Origin: a virus
Strand: one strand, 5' to 3'
Virus record (IMG/VR): IMGVR_UViG_3300031576_000002
Coordinates: 141,228-205,227 of that record
DNA: 64,000 nt
Part shown: piece after piece, positions 4,576-34,893 of the stretch
Numbering within the stretch: the first letter of the stretch is position 1
Layout: each line of letters starts with the position of its first letter
The notes under the pieces: generated by a model
The model's database searches: none
The model's input: the letters and a program-made list of their open reading frames with translations, nothing else
Told to the model about the DNA's origin: nothing
Program-made: the position numbers and the translations under genes

Positions 4576-5089
4576 GAGGGCAGTAACCGTACAAACCGAG
4601 ACTCATATTGCAATTACAGCACAAAACCCGGTAACCCTCCGGATAGCCCTCTATTCTAAGCTCGTGAAATATCTCGCCCCTGTACCGAGATTTAGCTCTA
4701 TGCTGCCCACCCCCTCCACGGACGTGATCTAAGCACAAAAATTCGAGTAGCTCTTCCCCGCAGCATGCGCAGGCAGGGTGATCCAGCTTGCTGTAATGGC
4801 ATAGAGCTTCGTAGCGCTTGCTTCGCCGCCACTGCTTCAAATAAATTCGTCTCCTCTCCCGGAAAACAGGATCCTTTCCCCGTCGCCTGCTGTACTCTCG
4901 GAACTTCTCGGGACTAGCTTTGAAATACTCACGCGCCTGCCCCAAGACCTTCGCTCGAAACTCGGGCTCTTCGTGATACCGTTTGCGCTTGGCGGCAAGC
5001 ATGCACGCCTTGCACTTCCCGTAGGTACGGTAAAATTCTCTGCGTAGCTTAGCCGTCCCGCACCGATTACATATCTTTAGAGTGTCCAT
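4556..5089 (-). CDS. HNH homing-type endonuclease with N-terminal zinc finger
   Basis: The protein has 177 residues. The N-terminal CNRC...CKAC (Cys 7,10,26,29) forms a zinc finger, followed by a long basic helical stretch. The C-terminal half has CACCGE, LCLDHVRGGG and VLCCNCN, the typical two Cys pairs around the His of an HNH nuclease. The gene fills nearly all of a 548-bp insertion inside a conserved phage gene. It overlaps the upstream fragment by 23 nt and the downstream fragment by 20 nt. This is the arrangement expected of a free-standing homing endonuclease that has invaded a coding sequence. Confidence 0.9.
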   Translation of the reverse strand: MDTLKICNRCGTAKLRREFYRTYGKCKACMLAAKRKRYHEEPEFRAKVLGQAREYFKASPEKFREYSRRRGKDPVFRERRRIYLKQWRRSKRYEALCHYSKLDHPACACCGEELLEFLCLDHVRGGGGQHRAKSRYRGEIFHELRIEGYPEGYRVLCCNCNMSLGLYGYCPHDKRRA

Positions 5090-5468
5090 GCACGTAGCAT
5101 AACATGAAAATACCCCGAAAGTGAAGGTTCTGATCTTGGGTAAAGAAAGGGTGCTCCGGACCTCCGGTGAATACCTTGAGCCGGTTGTTCTGCGTTACGT
5201 CCTCGACCATCTCCTCCGCATTGGCGTAAGGATTCTCGTCCACATACTCCACTTCAAACTTAGAAGTAATCCTGCGGAAAAGCTTGTCAAGATGAGCTAC
5301 GAGTGCTTGGTAGGACGGCACCGCAGACGCATCGTGAGCAGGCGCTTTCTCGTAAGCAGTAGCAACGGCTTCGAGGTATTCATCCCAGTCCACTGGCATC
5401 AACTTGGCCAAACGCTCAAGTAACTGCGCGTTTTTCTCTGGCGCAGGTGTATAGTAGTCAGCATGCAT
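5067..5468 (-). CDS. N-terminal part of conserved phage protein split by an HNH gene
   Basis: Residues 51-119 carry PSYQALVAHLDKLF, VDENPYANAEEMVEDV and LKVFTGG, then NLHFRG, matching the front half of the FRxVHD family. The last 14 codons read into the HNH insertion and end at a stop at 5067. The first codons come from the end of the neighbouring tnpB unit: the ATG at 5468 lies in its right terminal repeat. Before that insertion the reading frame would have continued to an ATG at 6713. The start is therefore an insertion product, or translation starts later (for example Met24). Confidence 0.75.
   Translation of the reverse strand: MHADYYTPAPEKNAQLLERLAKLMPVDWDEYLEAVATAYEKAPAHDASAVPSYQALVAHLDKLFRRITSKFEVEYVDENPYANAEEMVEDVTQNNRLKVFTGGPEHPFFTQDQNLHFRGIFMLCYVHGHSKDM
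5454..5461. repeat. Right 8-bp flanking direct repeat of tnpB unit A
   Basis: GTAGTCAG here matches GTAGTTAG at 6690-6697 in 7 of 8 positions. The two copies directly abut the ends of unit A, and copy B has a perfect 8-bp pair in the same register. They are read as a target-site duplication. Confidence 0.7.
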
Positions 5469-6689
5469 GACTGCTTAAGCCGCCACTTGCATAGCAGGTA
5501 AGCAGCCTTCTCGTTTCACAGAGGAACTTACAAGCGTATCCTCTCCACGAAGGGATAGCAGAGCCCGGTTTAAGACGTTTTTAGCCGCGTTGACATCTCT
5601 ATCAAGGACCAAGCCACAAGCAGAGCAGATATGGACTCTTTCACTCAAACTCTTCTTCACAGTCATTCCACATCCGCTGCACTCTTGGCTGGTGCCTCTG
5701 GGATTGACTTTTACCACTATCCTACCAGCTTCTTCCGCTTTGTAGGACAGCATGTGGAGCAACATCCCCATTCCAACATCTTTGAAGCTACGCCTGAATC
5801 CACGGCTGAGACCCTGGCTCATACCTTTCAGGTTCAAGTCTTCCACCGCAATCAGATCATACTCTTTGACCAAAGACTTAGACACTCCATCAAGAATATG
5901 CTTCCGAGTTCTTGTAACTTTCTGCCAAGCCTTAGCCAGTACCTTGACGGCTTTCCTTCTACGCTTAGATCCCTTCTGTCTCCTGGATACCGTTCTTTGA
6001 GCATGCTTGAGCTTCTTCTCGTTCTTGGCGTAAACACGTTGCCGCTCAATCAAGATGCCGTCTGAGGTAGCGACTAGAGCTTGCATGCCTAGATCAATGC
6101 CAATGACTTTGCCAGTCTTGAGAAGAGGAGCTGGAAGCGGTAGCTCACAGGATAAGACGGCGTACCAGCCGTCAGCTTCTCTTTTGACTGTGACCTCTTT
6201 AACCTTGGCATCAGGCGGAAGCTCCCGATAAGGATTCCAGCGGAAGTGTCCCAGCTTGGAAAGATGTAGCTTTTTGCTGTCAAACTTGAAACCTGACTGA
6301 TTGTATGTGAAGGAGTCGTACCGATCCCTACTCTTGAATCTGGGAAAGCCTGGCTTCTCTCCACGCTTGACTCTTCTGAAGAAAGCCTTGTACGTTTTGT
6401 CCAGTTTTTGAAGGACTGGGTGAAGAACTCTTGAATAGATCGTGTCATAGCCTTCTACCTGCTTTGAAACATACTTAAGCTCTAGGCACTGATCGTAGAA
6501 GCTGAGAGTTCTATTATGCTGCTTCCACTCCAGGATTCGTTGTTCCAAAGCACAGTTGTAGAGGAAGCGGCAGAAATCCAGAAGCCGCTGGAGATTGATC
6601 TCCTGGGCCTTGGTAGGTTGGAGGCGGAACTTGTAGGAACGGCGCACGGCTAGAGTGTATCACAAGGGAGTTAAGGAATCACGCATGTA
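5462..6689 (-). mobile_element. TnpB-only transposable unit A (1228 bp, terminal inverted repeats)
   Basis: The unit contains one tnpB. The left end reads CATGCGTGATTCCTTAA and the right end, read inward, CATGCATGACTGCTTAA, which match in 14 of 17 positions. The tnpB stop codon is part of the right repeat. The unit is exactly as long as copy B at 18819-20046. IS200/IS605 elements normally lack such terminal repeats and make no target duplication, so a different transposase acting in trans is inferred. Confidence 0.8.
5475..6647 (-). CDS. tnpB: TnpB RNA-guided nuclease (IS1341-type), copy A
   Basis: A full-length TnpB of 390 residues. RuvC residues are visible: GIDLG (D185), AVEDL (E269) and DRDVNAA (D351). 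The zinc ribbon CSGC..CSAC (C323, C326, C341, C344) lies between the last two. The N-terminal MRRSYKFRLQPT is the usual TnpB opening. The start is GTG, 6 nt after a TACACT -10 box, so a leaderless mRNA is likely. TnpB cuts DNA under omegaRNA guidance; because the unit ends about 13 bp past the stop, any scaffold RNA must overlap the coding sequence. No tnpA is present. Roughly nine in ten residues match copy B. Confidence 0.95.
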   Translation of the reverse strand: MRRSYKFRLQPTKAQEINLQRLLDFCRFLYNCALEQRILEWKQHNRTLSFYDQCLELKYVSKQVEGYDTIYSRVLHPVLQKLDKTYKAFFRRVKRGEKPGFPRFKSRDRYDSFTYNQSGFKFDSKKLHLSKLGHFRWNPYRELPPDAKVKEVTVKREADGWYAVLSCELPLPAPLLKTGKVIGIDLGMQALVATSDGILIERQRVYAKNEKKLKHAQRTVSRRQKGSKRRRKAVKVLAKAWQKVTRTRKHILDGVSKSLVKEYDLIAVEDLNLKGMSQGLSRGFRRSFKDVGMGMLLHMLSYKAEEAGRIVVKVNPRGTSQECSGCGMTVKKSLSERVHICSACGLVLDRDVNAAKNVLNRALLSLRGEDTLVSSSVKREGCLPAMQVAA

Positions 6690-6697
6690 GTAGTTAG
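6690..6697. repeat. Left 8-bp flanking direct repeat of tnpB unit A
   Basis: GTAGTTAG differs at one position from the copy at 5454-5461. See the unit A entry. Confidence 0.7.
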
Positions 6698-15921: not shown

Positions 15922-15955
15922 GAAGTCTTCGGCGGCTGGAAACTATCACCTTTAT
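15918..15955 (-). pseudogene. Severed 3' tail of the lipoprotein gene at 17095-17658
   Basis: The frame ending at 15918 reads KGDSFQPPKTS and stops in an ATGA overlap with the next gene. It is in frame with the lipoprotein reading frame at 17658 if the tnpB unit between 15956 and about 17160 is removed. It is best read as the displaced last codons of that gene. Confidence 0.65.
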
Positions 15956-17162
15956 GCGACAGAAGAGGCCGCTCTGTGCTACAGTATCGGCTATGATTCA
16001 GCTCACCCTCCGACTCAAGCTCAGGCCAACTCCTGAGCAGAAGTCTATCTTCTATACCACCTCGGAGCAGCATACTCAATCTTACAACTACGCCTGCAAC
16101 TTTGGCTGGAAGAACAGCACTGCCAACCGGATCGAGATTCATCATGGTGTCTACCGTGCCCAAAGAGAGGCGACTCAGCTTCCTTCTCAACTTGTCGTAT
16201 CCAGCATTACCAGGGCTTCTGAATCTCTAGCCTCTGCCAAAGCCTTGAGAAGGAAAAAGAAGAAAGTAGCCTGTCCAAAGTCCAAACTCTGCCCCATCCG
16301 ATACGATTCAAGATCCTCCACAGTCAATCTCAAAGAAGGCTTTGCCGCTCTAGCAACCGTATCCGGCAGACAAAGAGTCCAGTTCAAAGTCCCTGACTTT
16401 CAACTTCCATACATTGACTGGAAAGTCTGCTCTTCCGATCTTATCCGGAATAGGAAGGGTAACTACTTCCTTCATGTCGTAGTCAGCCGTGAAGAGGAAC
16501 CGTTCATACCCGTTAAGAGAACAGTCGGAGTCGATCTTGGTATCACGCATCCAGCCGTAACTTCCAAGAACAAGTTTTTGGGTAAGAGGAGCTGGAAGAA
16601 CGTAGAAAGGAGAAACTTCAAACTGAGGCGTTCCCTTCAAGCCAAAGGCACAAAATCTGCCAAGAGACATCTTCAAAAGCTCTCTGGTAGACAGAAACGT
16701 TTCCGGCGTGACTGTGACCGTGTCTTGAGTAAGCAGTTGGTCCAGTCTTGTAAGAAGGGTTCTACCTTGGTATTTGAAAACTTGAAAGAGATCCGATCCG
16801 GTAACTCCAAAGGCAAGAGGTTCAACCGGAAGCTCCACGGTTGGAGCTTTGACCAACTTCAAGCCTTTGTAGAGTACAAAGCAAAGATGAGAGGTATCCA
16901 AGTTGTTTACGTGGATCCCCGGTACACCTCTCAGAAATGCTCCAAGTGTAAGTTCAGGAGCAAGAAAAACCGGATCTCTCAAAGTAGCTTCCAGTGTCGA
17001 AGCTGCGGGTTCAGGATTCATGCTGATCTCAATGCAGCTAGAAACATACGGAAGCGGTATCTTTTTACTCAGGCTAAAAGTTTGGGTAACGGGCTTATGT
17101 CAACAAGCCTAGTGCAGAGGTCAAAAGATCATCTGCAAGCTGCCTGCTTCGGCCGGTAGTAG
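15956..17162 (+). mobile_element. IS200/IS605-type tnpB insertion, third lineage
   Basis: The plus strand reads TTTAT immediately before the proposed left end, a plausible TnpB target-adjacent motif. The right end is placed just after the tnpB stop because the interrupted lipoprotein frame resumes there; it is uncertain by a few bases. No inverted repeats like those of units A and B are seen. It lacks tnpA. Confidence 0.6.
15993..17159 (+). CDS. tnpB: TnpB RNA-guided nuclease, distinct lineage
   Basis: The start is ATG 15993 (MIQLTLRLKL), 7 nt after a TACAGT -10 box; an ORF 13 codons longer has no TnpB-like sequence. It encodes 388 residues. RuvC residues are VGVDLG (D181), VFENL (E262) and HADLNAA (D345), with a CSKC..CRSC ribbon (C316, C319, C335, C338). 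Apart from these motifs it shares little with copies A and B. It is complete and may be active. Any omegaRNA should lie at its 3' end. Confidence 0.93.
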   Translation: MIQLTLRLKLRPTPEQKSIFYTTSEQHTQSYNYACNFGWKNSTANRIEIHHGVYRAQREATQLPSQLVVSSITRASESLASAKALRRKKKKVACPKSKLCPIRYDSRSSTVNLKEGFAALATVSGRQRVQFKVPDFQLPYIDWKVCSSDLIRNRKGNYFLHVVVSREEEPFIPVKRTVGVDLGITHPAVTSKNKFLGKRSWKNVERRNFKLRRSLQAKGTKSAKRHLQKLSGRQKRFRRDCDRVLSKQLVQSCKKGSTLVFENLKEIRSGNSKGKRFNRKLHGWSFDQLQAFVEYKAKMRGIQVVYVDPRYTSQKCSKCKFRSKKNRISQSSFQCRSCGFRIHADLNAARNIRKRYLFTQAKSLGNGLMSTSLVQRSKDHLQAACFGR

Positions 17163-18810: not shown

Positions 18811-18818
18811 CCCGTCGA
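18811..18818. repeat. Left 8-bp target duplication of tnpB unit B
   Basis: CCCGTCGA, identical to 20047-20054 on the other side of the unit. Confidence 0.85.
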
Positions 18819-20046
18819 GCCATGCGTGACTCCTTAAGCCCTCTGTGCTACCATCCAGCCATGCGGCGTTCCTACAAGTTCCGGCTTCAACCGACCAAGG
18901 CTCAGGAGATCAATCTCCAGAGGCTCCTGGACTACTGCCGCTTTCTCTACAACTGCGCTTTGGAGCAGCGTATTACAGAATACAAACAGCATAAGAGGAC
19001 TCTCAGCTACTACGATCAAGCCTTAGAACTTAAGCACGTATCCAAGCAGGTAGAAGGCTACGACACAGTCTACGCCAAAGTCTTGCAGGTTGTCCTTCAA
19101 AAACTGGATCTAGCTTACAAGGCTTTCTTCAGAAGGATCAAGCGTGGAGAGAAGCCGGGCTTTCCACGGTTCAAGAGTAGGGATCGGTACGACTCCTTTA
19201 CCTACAACCAGTCTGGTTTCAAGTTTGACAGTCAAAGGCTGCATCTTTCCAAGCTGGGCCATTTCCGCTGGAATCCTTATCGACAACTTCCACCAGACGA
19301 TAAGGTCAAAGAGGTCACAGTCAAAAGAGAAGCCGACGGTTGGTACGCAGTCTTATCCTGTGAGCTACCCCTTCCAGAACCTCTTCCCGCGACTGGAAAG
19401 GTCGTTGGTATTGATCTAGGCATGCAAGCTCTAGTTGCTACCTCAGATGGAATCGTAATTGAACGCCAACGTGTCTACGCCAAGAATGAGAAGAAGCTCA
19501 AGCATGCTCAGAGAACGGTTTCCAGAAGAAAGAAAGGCTCTAACCGTAGAAGAAAAGCAGTCAAGGTATTGGCTAAGGCTTGGCAGAAAGCTACAAGAAC
19601 TCGGAAGCATATTCTTGATGGAGTGTCTAAGCAGTTGGTACAGAACTATGATCTGATTGCGGTTGAAGACCTGAACCTGAAAGGGATGAGTCAAGGGCTC
19701 AACCGTGGATTCAGGCGTAGCTTCAAGGATGTCGGAATGGGGATGTTGCTTCACATGCTGTCCTACAAAGCGGAAGAAGCTGGTAGGATAGTGGTGAAAG
19801 TAGATCCCAGAGGAACCAGCCAGGAATGTAGTGGATGCGGAGCAACTGTGAAGAAGAGTTTGAAAGAAAGAGTTCATAACTGCTCTGCTTGTGGCTTGGT
19901 CCTTGATAGAGATGTCAACGCGGCTAAAAACGTCTTAAGCAGGGCTCTGCTATCCCTTCGTGGAGAGGATACGCTTGTAAGTTCCTCTGTGAAGCGAGAA
20001 GATTTCTTAAGTGCTGCTCAGGCAGCGGCTTAAGCAATCACGCATG
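18819..20046 (+). mobile_element. TnpB-only transposable unit B (1228 bp, terminal inverted repeats)
   Basis: The ends are CATGCGTGACTCCTTAA and, read inward from the right, CATGCGTGATTGCTTAA, matching in 15 of 17 positions. The unit is bounded by a perfect 8-bp repeat. Removing the unit and one repeat restores a stop (GGA TAG) to the neighbouring gene, so the empty site can be reconstructed. It has the same length as unit A. Confidence 0.85.
18861..20033 (+). CDS. tnpB: TnpB RNA-guided nuclease (IS1341-type), copy B
   Basis: ATG 18861 is chosen by alignment to copy A; a longer frame to 18633 is not TnpB-like. The 390-residue product keeps all catalytic residues (D185, E269, D351) and the four-Cys ribbon. 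The start lies 6 nt after a TACCAT -10 box, as in copy A. About 40 residues differ from copy A, spread along the chain, so the two copies are not a recent duplication within this genome or have diverged under selection. Confidence 0.95.
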   Translation: MRRSYKFRLQPTKAQEINLQRLLDYCRFLYNCALEQRITEYKQHKRTLSYYDQALELKHVSKQVEGYDTVYAKVLQVVLQKLDLAYKAFFRRIKRGEKPGFPRFKSRDRYDSFTYNQSGFKFDSQRLHLSKLGHFRWNPYRQLPPDDKVKEVTVKREADGWYAVLSCELPLPEPLPATGKVVGIDLGMQALVATSDGIVIERQRVYAKNEKKLKHAQRTVSRRKKGSNRRRKAVKVLAKAWQKATRTRKHILDGVSKQLVQNYDLIAVEDLNLKGMSQGLNRGFRRSFKDVGMGMLLHMLSYKAEEAGRIVVKVDPRGTSQECSGCGATVKKSLKERVHNCSACGLVLDRDVNAAKNVLSRALLSLRGEDTLVSSSVKREDFLSAAQAAA

Positions 20047-20375
20047 CCCGTCGAATCGCCGCCTGCCCAGGGACTTCGCCAGTGGGGGAGGGGTAGGAGG
20101 TCATCCGACCGCAGCTCGATCGACATCTCTAGGGCTTGGTACTCGTAGCACTCCAAGCCCGCCAGCCACCAGCCAGAGGCAATCAGCTCCTCTTCCGAGG
20201 CGTCGGTAGGATCCTGCATGCAAACGTCGAATACGATCTGCGGCTCGTCAGCCATACCGCAGGTCGTCCGCTGAAGGGCCAGGATGGCGCAGAAGAAACC
20301 GGCCGGCGCCTTGGCCTCCGCCAACATCGGAATCCGCAAGGTGTGCGCAAGTAGGAGTAAGGCTAAGGCACGCAT
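20007..20375 (-). CDS. Secreted or membrane small protein, C-terminus altered by tnpB unit B
   Basis: The N-terminus MRALALLLLAHTLRIP looks like a signal sequence. The mature part has scattered Cys and acidic patches. The last 12 codons (MRDCLSRCLSST) come from the end of the tnpB unit. Without the insertion the gene would end GGDSTG-stop. Function unknown. Confidence 0.65.
   Translation of the reverse strand: MRALALLLLAHTLRIPMLAEAKAPAGFFCAILALQRTTCGMADEPQIVFDVCMQDPTDASEEELIASGWWLAGLECYEYQALEMSIELRSDDLLPLPHWRSPWAGGDSTGMRDCLSRCLSST
20047..20054. repeat. Right 8-bp target duplication of tnpB unit B
   Basis: CCCGTCGA, identical to 18811-18818. Confidence 0.85.
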
Positions 20376-33521: not shown

Positions 33522-33678
33522 GGTTCACCTCGGCTTTCGGTTCTGGAGGAGGACATACACAGCACGAATCGTCTTGGTCCTCCGGCCGTCCATCGCGGCA
33601 CTCAGGACACATCAAGCCGCACCGATACCCACCATCCCCGATCCGGTGCTGCCCTCGCCCGCAATCTTCCTGCTTCAC
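33508..33678 (-). CDS. Small Cys-rich protein, GTG start
   Basis: Fifty-six residues. GTG 33678 overlaps the Thg1-like stop as GTGA. It has CGLMCPEC and CCVC clusters, likely zinc binding, and a Pro-rich tail. Overlaps the MGMFDS start by 14 nt. Confidence 0.65.
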   Translation of the reverse strand: MKQEDCGRGQHRIGDGGYRCGLMCPECRDGRPEDQDDSCCVCPPPEPKAEVNHGNV

Positions 33679-34508
33679 GGTGGAATAATCGGATCCGCCT
33701 CGTGAAAAATGACGTCTACACGGTTGGTAACGGAACTGAATTTGGGAAGAGTCAGAAGAACAACGTCCGATCTTTCGACTGACAGATTTGGATTCTGACG
33801 GGCGTCATGTTTGGGCGGCAGTCGATCAATTTCTTCTGGGGCAAATGGGCGATTGACGGTCCGCCGTTGGTAGAAACTACCGCGTTTGAGAGGCGCTGCC
33901 AGATCATTCCAATTGTAACCCTTCTGGAACAGCATTTCTTGCATGTCTGACTGCTTCTTACCGTGCAGCTCTTTGTGAGAAAAATGAGCACGAGCCAGCA
34001 TCTGGACGCTGTTTTTGGCAGCGTCTTGCTCTCGCCACAATACCGCGTTCGCGGCCTCCCACAACGTAGGCACTGTGTAAGCTCGGCAATCAAACGAAAC
34101 TCTCGCCCATTCTTCATCGTGACGTCTAATAAATAGCGGCCCCTGGAGGACAAAGGCGGTGGTTGCCATTGAAGCGATGACCGATACCAATTTCTGGATT
34201 CGGCCGTTGAAGAAAATCTCACTCGCGTAGGAGTCGGAGTACAGCACCAAGGTGATTTCGTCGGACTGGCAGTATCCGATTCGAGCGTTGGTTTGTTCGA
34301 CGAGATGACGAGTGACCGCCCTCATCAAGTTGACAAATCCGACGTCAAAGGGACGCTCTAGGCCAACGGTGAAAGTATGAAAAGAACGGCCGTCGATACG
34401 AACAATAACAGGCAGCAAAGGCATAAACTTCTCACCTGCATGGATACTTTCCAGCATTTTCATCCGGTCGCCCAAATCATCGGGGCCTGGATAACCCATG
34501 TTTCTCAC
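33675..34508 (-). CDS. Thg1-like 3'-5' nucleotidyl transferase (tRNA-His guanylyltransferase family)
   Basis: About 277 residues from GTG 34508 (GGGAGAG upstream; ATG 34499 is the alternative). VIVRIDGRSFHTFT (D39) and YCQSDEITLVL (D83, E84) are the metal-binding motifs of Thg1, and SEIFFNGRIQKLVSVIAS follows as in the family. Thg1 adds G to the 5' end of tRNA-His; Thg1-like proteins repair 5'-truncated tRNAs using 3'-5' templated synthesis. It is of usual length. A role in mending host or phage tRNAs is inferred. The tRNA-Lys gene in the window is not adjacent. Confidence 0.92.
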   Translation of the reverse strand: MRNMGYPGPDDLGDRMKMLESIHAGEKFMPLLPVIVRIDGRSFHTFTVGLERPFDVGFVNLMRAVTRHLVEQTNARIGYCQSDEITLVLYSDSYASEIFFNGRIQKLVSVIASMATTAFVLQGPLFIRRHDEEWARVSFDCRAYTVPTLWEAANAVLWREQDAAKNSVQMLARAHFSHKELHGKKQSDMQEMLFQKGYNWNDLAAPLKRGSFYQRRTVNRPFAPEEIDRLPPKHDARQNPNLSVERSDVVLLTLPKFSSVTNRVDVIFHEADPIIPP

Positions 34509-34527
34509 GGAGTCTCTCCCTCCTGCT

Positions 34528-34893
34528 TCACTTGAACACCAGGACAGCCTTCTGGTCACCCGGGATCTTATCGAGCACGTCCTGCATCTTGATGTTGCGC
34601 CCGCTCAGGATCTCGGCCACCAGCGGGTGGGGATCCTTCCCGAAAGACCCCAACTCGTGCGTCCAGACGGACCGTCCAACCAGCGCTTCTAAGCGCTCGT
34701 GCACCAGCTCAAACGGAACCGTCAGGGGGGTCATGAACAAGAGGCTCAGCTCTTCGGCCCGCTCTTCACGAGGCGCCGCCCGGACCGACTCCATCGTGCT
34801 GCGCAGCCGCGCTCGGCAAGCCTCGCACCACTCCTTCGCCCCTACCTTCTGGTTGCAAATCCCACAGGTTCTCGTGCCCAGTTCGGCGCTCAT
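34528..34893 (-). CDS. Zinc-finger protein
   Basis: The 121-residue protein has TCGICNQK...EWCEACRAR at the N-terminus, then helical segments. It overlaps the previous gene by 4 nt. Likely nucleic-acid or protein adaptor. Confidence 0.7.
   Translation of the reverse strand: MSAELGTRTCGICNQKVGAKEWCEACRARLRSTMESVRAAPREERAEELSLLFMTPLTVPFELVHERLEALVGRSVWTHELGSFGKDPHPLVAEILSGRNIKMQDVLDKIPGDQKAVLVFK

Follow-up and report, generated by a model that had tools for sequence, protein, structure and literature searches.

A 64,000 bp stretch of DNA from a large uncultured phage (the window), forming the final part of the 205,227 bp virus record IMGVR_UViG_3300031576_000002, was found to possess two copies of a compact cassette whose sole gene is tnpB, with a third copy lying elsewhere in the same record. 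The copies show inverted ends, a target duplication at each of the three sites, an intact and constrained tnpB gene and a canonical omega-RNA end within the terminal inverted repeat (TIR). TIRs accompanied by duplications at unrelated sites are the footprint of DDE transposases; Y1 and serine enzymes leave neither. The cassette is read here, with a probability of about 70%, as a non-autonomous cut-and-paste element, or mobile insertion cassette, which a DDE transposase moves in trans and in which tnpB has been fitted to a new end.

Cassette copies, inverted ends and insertion sites

All three copies measure exactly 1,226 bp, CATG to CATG, and are 85-87% identical to each other (13-15% divergence) with zero indels (Table 1). 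Their ends pair as 20 bp inverted repeats, with 18 of 20 positions matching in copy 1 and 15 and 17 in the other two (consensus CATGYRTGAYNNCTTAASYC; short form CATGCGTGANNNCTTAAG). The original prediction, made for copy 1, gave ends of ~17 bp with 15 of 17 matching; these ends are real and extend further than was proposed, and the further copies carry the same ends. The end pattern occurs four times in the window compared with 0.03 occurrences expected, and six times in the whole record, as three pairs. As these six are the only good matches to the pattern in the record, it holds neither solo ends nor a larger sibling element. Two further tnpB lineages of the same record, which serve as a control, have no ends of this type. 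The left inverted repeat varies between copies at 6 of 20 columns compared with 13 of 20 in the adjacent leader (p = 0.028), which suggests constraint by an end-binding enzyme; since the left end has no role in the omega-RNA, a transposase is the likely source of this constraint.

The three insertion sites are unrelated in sequence and each has its own direct repeat. Starting at the CATG ends, the flanks read CCCGTCGAGC/CCCGTCGAAT, CTAACTACTA/CTGACTACTA and GGTGGAGCGG/GGTGGAGCGA, matching at 8, 9 and 9 of 10 positions, respectively. At random 1,226 bp spacings within the same record the chance of at least 8 matches out of 10 is 5.9e-4 and that of at least 9 is 5.7e-5, giving about 2e-12 for the three sites jointly. 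The repeats represent either a 10 bp duplication which later mutated or duplications of 8-9 bp with 1-2 extra bases. At copy 1 the perfect 8 bp repeat (CCCGTCGA) that had been predicted was confirmed and is followed by two non-matching bases. The right repeats of copies 1 and 3 run on into intact coding sequence, and the left repeats were therefore taken as the changed ones.

The sites were reconstructed from the record's own sequence by removal of the unit and one repeat. At copy 1 this placed a stop codon directly after GGDSTG, exactly as had been foreseen, and the other two sites were also restored, copy 2 giving one continuous open reading frame (ORF), MAEPFTDYYTPAPEKN..., and copy 3 an ATGA stop/start overlap between two genes. 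The reconstructed sites all show the duplication and, with the ends being alike between copies, neither of the findings named in the original prediction as refuting it was seen. The right inverted repeat of copy 2 (window 5462-5481) was also seen to supply an in-frame ATG as a replacement start for the interrupted gene (5067-5468), MHADYYTPAPEKN....

Pairwise comparison of the three copies gave a synonymous divergence (dS) of 0.45-0.61 and a ratio of nonsynonymous to synonymous substitution (dN/dS) of 0.10-0.14, with neither indels nor stops, indicating that TnpB has been kept functional. In the target-repeat pairs only 4 of 30 positions differ when the three sites are taken together, and the insertions seem to be younger than the divergence of the copies. 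The cassettes would thus have diverged before landing here, as members of a mobile family outside this record, and the data point to a long-lived mobile family and not a single accident. It could be argued that the copies all go back to one past capture, were multiplied inside the phage through duplication or recombination and are now dead, as the transposase families tested for are missing from the record and no copies are identical. However, the flanks of each copy are unrelated to those of the others and bear a separate duplication, both ends are conserved, and the divergence has accumulated under the low dN/dS given above, making this explanation very unlikely.

Table 1. Positions of the cassettes and associated features (window coordinates unless prefixed).
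Feature	Position	Strand	Details
Cassette copy 1	18821-20046	+	1226 bp
Cassette copy 2	5462-6687	-	1226 bp, 86% identical to copy 1
Cassette copy 3	G000:2734-3959	-	1226 bp
Left direct repeat, copy 1	18811-18820	.	CCCGTCGA (18811-18818) plus GC
Right direct repeat, copy 1	20047-20056	.	CCCGTCGA (20047-20054) plus AT
Left direct repeat, copy 2	6688-6697	-	CTAACTACTA
Right direct repeat, copy 2	5452-5461	-	CTGACTACTA
Left TIR, copy 1	18821-18840	+	CATGCGTGACTCCTTAAGCC; 18/20 complementary to right end
Right TIR, copy 1	20027-20046	-	CATGCGTGATTGCTTAAGCC (read on - strand); includes tnpB stop codon
Left TIR, copy 2	6668-6687	-	CATGCGTGATTCCTTAACTC
Right TIR, copy 2	5462-5481	+	CATGCATGACTGCTTAAGCC (outside-in reading)
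tnpB, copy 1	18861-20033	+	390 aa, ISDra2-like RNA-guided nuclease; RuvC D185, E269, D351 kept
tnpB, copy 2	5475-6647	-	390 aa, 89% identical
Predicted omega-RNA 3' scaffold, copy 1	19956-20041	+	ends in AGCAATCAC, final 15 nt within right TIR; 20.6 bits, E 1.2e-6
Predicted omega-RNA 3' scaffold, copy 2	5467-5552	-	18.7 bits, E 8.2e-6
GCATG, 5 extra bases between canonical TCAC end and cassette end	20042-20046	+	conserved in all copies
Phage gene, phrog_3170-like	5067-5461	-	cut near start by copy 2; ORF whole when flanks joined

TnpB and the predicted omega-RNA end in the right repeat

Both Cas12 and the eukaryotic Fanzor descend from TnpB. Judged from its sequence, the cassette protein is a member of the TnpB family of RNA-guided endonucleases, with the RuvC D/E/D residues and zinc ribbon typical of it, scoring 314 bits against the TnpB profile NF040570 (cut-off 100), with matches also to PF01385, PF07282 and, at E 5e-52, PDB 8bf8. 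Residues D185, E269 and D351 align with the catalytic residues of ISDra2 TnpB. Its closest relatives in viral collections are at most 48% identical (P0001 and alignment scans), and those in phage and plasmid collections fall below 60% identity.

In relatives, the 3' end of tnpB has a conserved order of outer stem, GAGAAG block, terminal hairpin and AG-NNN-TCAC, the last of which is taken as the putative element boundary. A covariance model of omega-RNA 3' ends was built from 14 relatives with the three cassette copies excluded, and showed double changes at 9 of 11 pairs. The model matched all three copies (E 5e-7 to 3e-6) in a run with a positive control, a Geobacter sequence outside the training set, which was matched at E 2.4e-10. 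The match stops at TCAC (TCAT in copy 2), within the right inverted repeat and 5 nt short of the cassette end. Within this repeat, GTGANNNCT is complementary to the AGNNNTCAC end motif, and CTTAAG is the 3' strand of the predicted terminal hairpin, so the right inverted repeat seems to double as the omega-RNA end. The omega-RNA is also predicted to overlap the 3' end of tnpB: in the RNA core (codons 359-378) only 1 of 13 four-fold sites is variable compared with 54 of 137 elsewhere (p = 0.018). The original prediction had tnpB as a passenger of a unit resembling a miniature inverted-repeat transposable element (MITE), which undersells a gene occupying 1,173 of 1,226 bp. With tnpB under purifying selection and the putative omega-RNA 3' end overlapping the right repeat, the gene and the cassette ends are, as far as can be judged from the letters, fitted to each other.

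The presence of a TnpB and an AG-NNN-TCAC omega-RNA end, both of the IS200/IS605 kind, together with TCAC being the usual right boundary of relatives, could suggest that the unit is of the IS200/IS605 or IS1341 type and is mobilised in trans by a Y1 HUH transposase, in which case its inverted ends and the repeats beside them would be coincidental. However, GCATG follows TCAC at three unrelated sites, which indicates that the boundary is not TCAC. There is no tetranucleotide in common 5' of the left ends, and the 40 bp between the cassette left end and the tnpB start are too short for the usual left-end hairpin. In addition, duplications at three sites are not a product of Y1 enzymes, and no Y1 protein was detected in the record. 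An origin of this type is thus considered very unlikely. The 20 bp TIRs, the duplications and a boundary 5 nt past TCAC set the cassette apart from the IS200/IS605 elements; the TIRs and duplications, and the lack of a Resolvase domain in the record, likewise set it apart from IS607, the elements of which use a serine recombinase and have neither TIRs nor a target duplication. What was found is a pair of insertion sequence (IS)-type ends around a cargo without a transposase, as in mobile insertion cassettes.

Candidate transposase and proposed mechanism

The ends were compared with those of the IS4 family, whose members encode a DDE transposase with a YREK motif; the cassette itself has no transposase gene. 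Published ISH8 ends follow CAT-----------T----- with 10 bp direct repeats (PMC2266710, Table 1), and this consensus is fully matched, CAT at positions 1-3 and T15 being found in six of six ends and the 10 bp repeats having 1-2 mismatches. The IS4Sa consensus shows a misfit at position 9. This modest match makes the IS4 family, of the ISH8/IS231 kind, a plausible source of the ends. An uncharacterised group of DDE elements outside IS4 with duplications of 8-10 bp is a possible, if less probable, source, the mechanism being as proposed and the transposase family differing. Other families with duplications of 8-9 bp do exist, which is in keeping with this; however, tips in such families are mostly G-rich (GG, GT) and not CAT.

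It is proposed that a DDE transposase, which would come in trans from the host or a co-infecting element and is most likely an IS4-family enzyme of the ISH8/IS231 kind, recognises the 20 bp inverted ends. Insertion at unrelated sites would take place via a staggered cut of about 8-10 bp, resulting in the target duplication. The sole cargo would be the ISDra2-like TnpB, with the omega-RNA 3' end lying within the last ~100 bp of the cassette. The terminal hairpin and AG-NNN-TCAC end of this RNA would be common to the right inverted repeat, and the downstream flank would form the 3' part of the guide. The usual view for canonical elements is that TnpB cuts empty sites and thereby promotes copying-in. 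In the phage, TnpB would most likely aid persistence by cutting cassette-free alleles, such as replicated empty copies or the alleles of related phages that co-infect the cell, with repair copying the cassette in. Movement in trans, the transposase responsible and the family it belongs to, as well as RNA expression, the point at which the guide starts and homing, are all steps that we infer.

Several observations weigh against this proposal. The direct repeats are imperfect, and no independent empty-site homologue was found in searches for near phages and, in IMG/VR, for relatives of the flanking ATPase and the DNA polymerase. The likeness to IS4 comes down to the repeat length and a handful of conserved positions (CAT, T15). 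The published IS231 consensus, CAT-------AA--TAA--- with 10-12 bp repeats (PMC2266710, Table 1), on which the comparison with IS231 is based, is followed at CAT and TAA, but AA at positions 11-12 is missing in six of six ends. A search for an autonomous element with these ends, which had been suggested as a check, found none, either in the viral contigs or in a sample of 397 cellular genomes, a thin coverage of cellular diversity. These genomes are from one phylum, drawn from the Actinomycetota metagenome-assembled genome L025, which may not be the phylum of the host; a single chance match with one mismatch to the TIR was the sole hit among them. Scans of IMG/VR with exact TIR patterns gave 7 and 12 single matches, which were rejected as none had a convincing mate; those inspected lay within ordinary phage genes, and no relative of the cassette TnpB is encoded at these loci. 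Also, if the guide started right after TCAC, as it does in canonical elements, it would begin with the fixed GCATG and would be unable to match an empty site, and no common five-base motif resembling a target-adjacent motif (TAM) was seen by eye upstream of the three duplications. These two points weaken the homing step. If the scaffold instead ran on for 5 nt and so reached the cassette end, the flank would serve as the guide, as usual. Past the extended hairpin, 7 nt are left unpaired in the copies compared with about 9 nt in relatives, which is compatible with a scaffold reaching the cassette end.

A DDE transposase acting in trans had been put forward in the original prediction as the simplest reading. 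The TIRs, the duplications and a tnpB without its usual transposase support it, but no DDE transposase turned up in the families tested: the record has no Y1_Tnp, Resolvase, DDE_Tnp_1 or rve domain, these being the families scanned for record-wide. This absence would also fit a scenario in which TnpB itself inserts the cassette, its staggered cut setting the 8-10 bp duplication and joining taking place without a DDE transposase. It is in line with this that TnpB-type nucleases make staggered cuts and that the repeat length varies, the left junction showing 0-2 bases that do not match. However, the conserved 20 bp inverted ends on the RNA-free side would be left unexplained and no target motif is shared. 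To our knowledge there is no precedent for TnpB-driven insertion, and the scenario is regarded as highly improbable. Just as little weight is given to TnpB being, instead of a cargo, part of the mobility machinery of a transposon with TIRs and target-site duplications (TSDs) but no DDE transposase; its RNA-guided staggered cut would open the target and set the 8-10 bp duplication, and the inverted ends would be processed by TnpB-RNA or host enzymes.

Related systems and phage context

For eukaryotes and their viruses, DDE elements have been described that captured TnpB-type nucleases and had their end recoded into the guide RNA. In the Ectocarpus virus, Fanzor1 is carried in IS4-type elements (ESvi-1A/1B, ESv-2 = ISvEsV1_1; PMC3627910). 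As in the cassette, a TnpB homologue is found in an IS4-like element of a large virus with TIRs and a TSD (8 bp), and some related elements are without a transposase. However, the protein there is a eukaryotic Fanzor1 in an algal virus, whereas here it is a bacterial ISDra2-like TnpB in a phage, and the TIRs of its IS4Sa group have T at position 9 where the cassette has A. In Fanzor guide RNAs (reRNAs) of SfAV and others, the TIR/TSD is recoded into the scaffold (PMC10711439), and these are likewise non-autonomous TIR/TSD units which encode the nuclease only and in which the TIR is part of the scaffold. The two differ in that the Fanzor scaffold takes in the TSD, whereas that of the cassette has its canonical end 5 nt short of the element boundary.

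The MIC231 cassettes of the Bacillus cereus group, which have IS231 ends and are moved in trans (PMC2266710; PMC1196294), are similarly non-autonomous, with CAT ends of IS4 type, duplications of ~10 bp and a cargo replacing the transposase. The present cassette differs in being found in a phage, in that its cargo is an RNA-guided nuclease whose guide RNA would use the cassette end, in lacking the AA bases of IS231, and in that neither the viral contigs nor the 397 genomes yielded its cognate IS. ISDra2 and other IS200/IS605 elements resemble the cassette in their TnpB protein (PDB 8bf8) and in how the omega-RNA 3' end is built, but TIRs and target duplications are absent from them, they terminate at TCAC/TCAA and their transposase is a Y1 TnpA. 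No paper on a bacterial TnpB in the present arrangement was found in a search with subscription journals mostly outside its coverage, and novelty is unproven. If the proposal is correct, bacterial TnpB in a phage would be an independent case of the same switch, TnpB would be able to serve transposons beyond IS200/IS605 and IS607, and the adaptation of the guide boundary to a changed transposon end would become testable.

A test of 78 viral relatives for inverted ends together with repeats at the flanks revealed a single one with long, convincing TIRs. This unit (L065:1444-2704, in IMGVR_UViG_3300037993_000335) has a 37%-identical tnpB and 21 bp inverted ends (20/21, ACGGTARTGGTCAAGTTTGAC), with the stop codon in the right end. 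It shows no clear target duplication and has no second copy in IMG/VR; an independent capture by another TIR element is possible. Inverted repeats in L092 and L053 were rejected as AT-rich or partial. The L053 locus (1494-2665 in IMGVR_UViG_3300009285_001773) has a perfect 14 bp inverted repeat between the start of a tnpB and the TCAC right end, and no target duplication was seen.

The G+C content of the cassettes is 49% compared with 57% for the window and the record. A second, distant tnpB in the window (15954-17159, +) is also low in G+C and is without inverted ends, and a gene related to it was found near G000:37.9-39.1 kb. No close relative of the phage was found among sequenced phages. 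In IMG/VR, no relative of the flanking ATPase, which was sought for an empty-site comparison, and no close relative of the DNA polymerase was found; the top phage polymerase match is 27% identical. The record appears to be that of a contractile-tailed phage, as judged from its tail sheath and baseplate wedge. It encodes a DNA polymerase A that carries a fused uracil-DNA glycosylase domain (L032:11685-14450; G000:51.7-54.5 kb), and the adjoining gene encodes a RecA with an intein (L032:9808-11688; G000:49.8-51.7 kb). A predicted protein at window 33675-34559 (-) was judged by eye to resemble a tRNA-His guanylyltransferase (Thg1-like).
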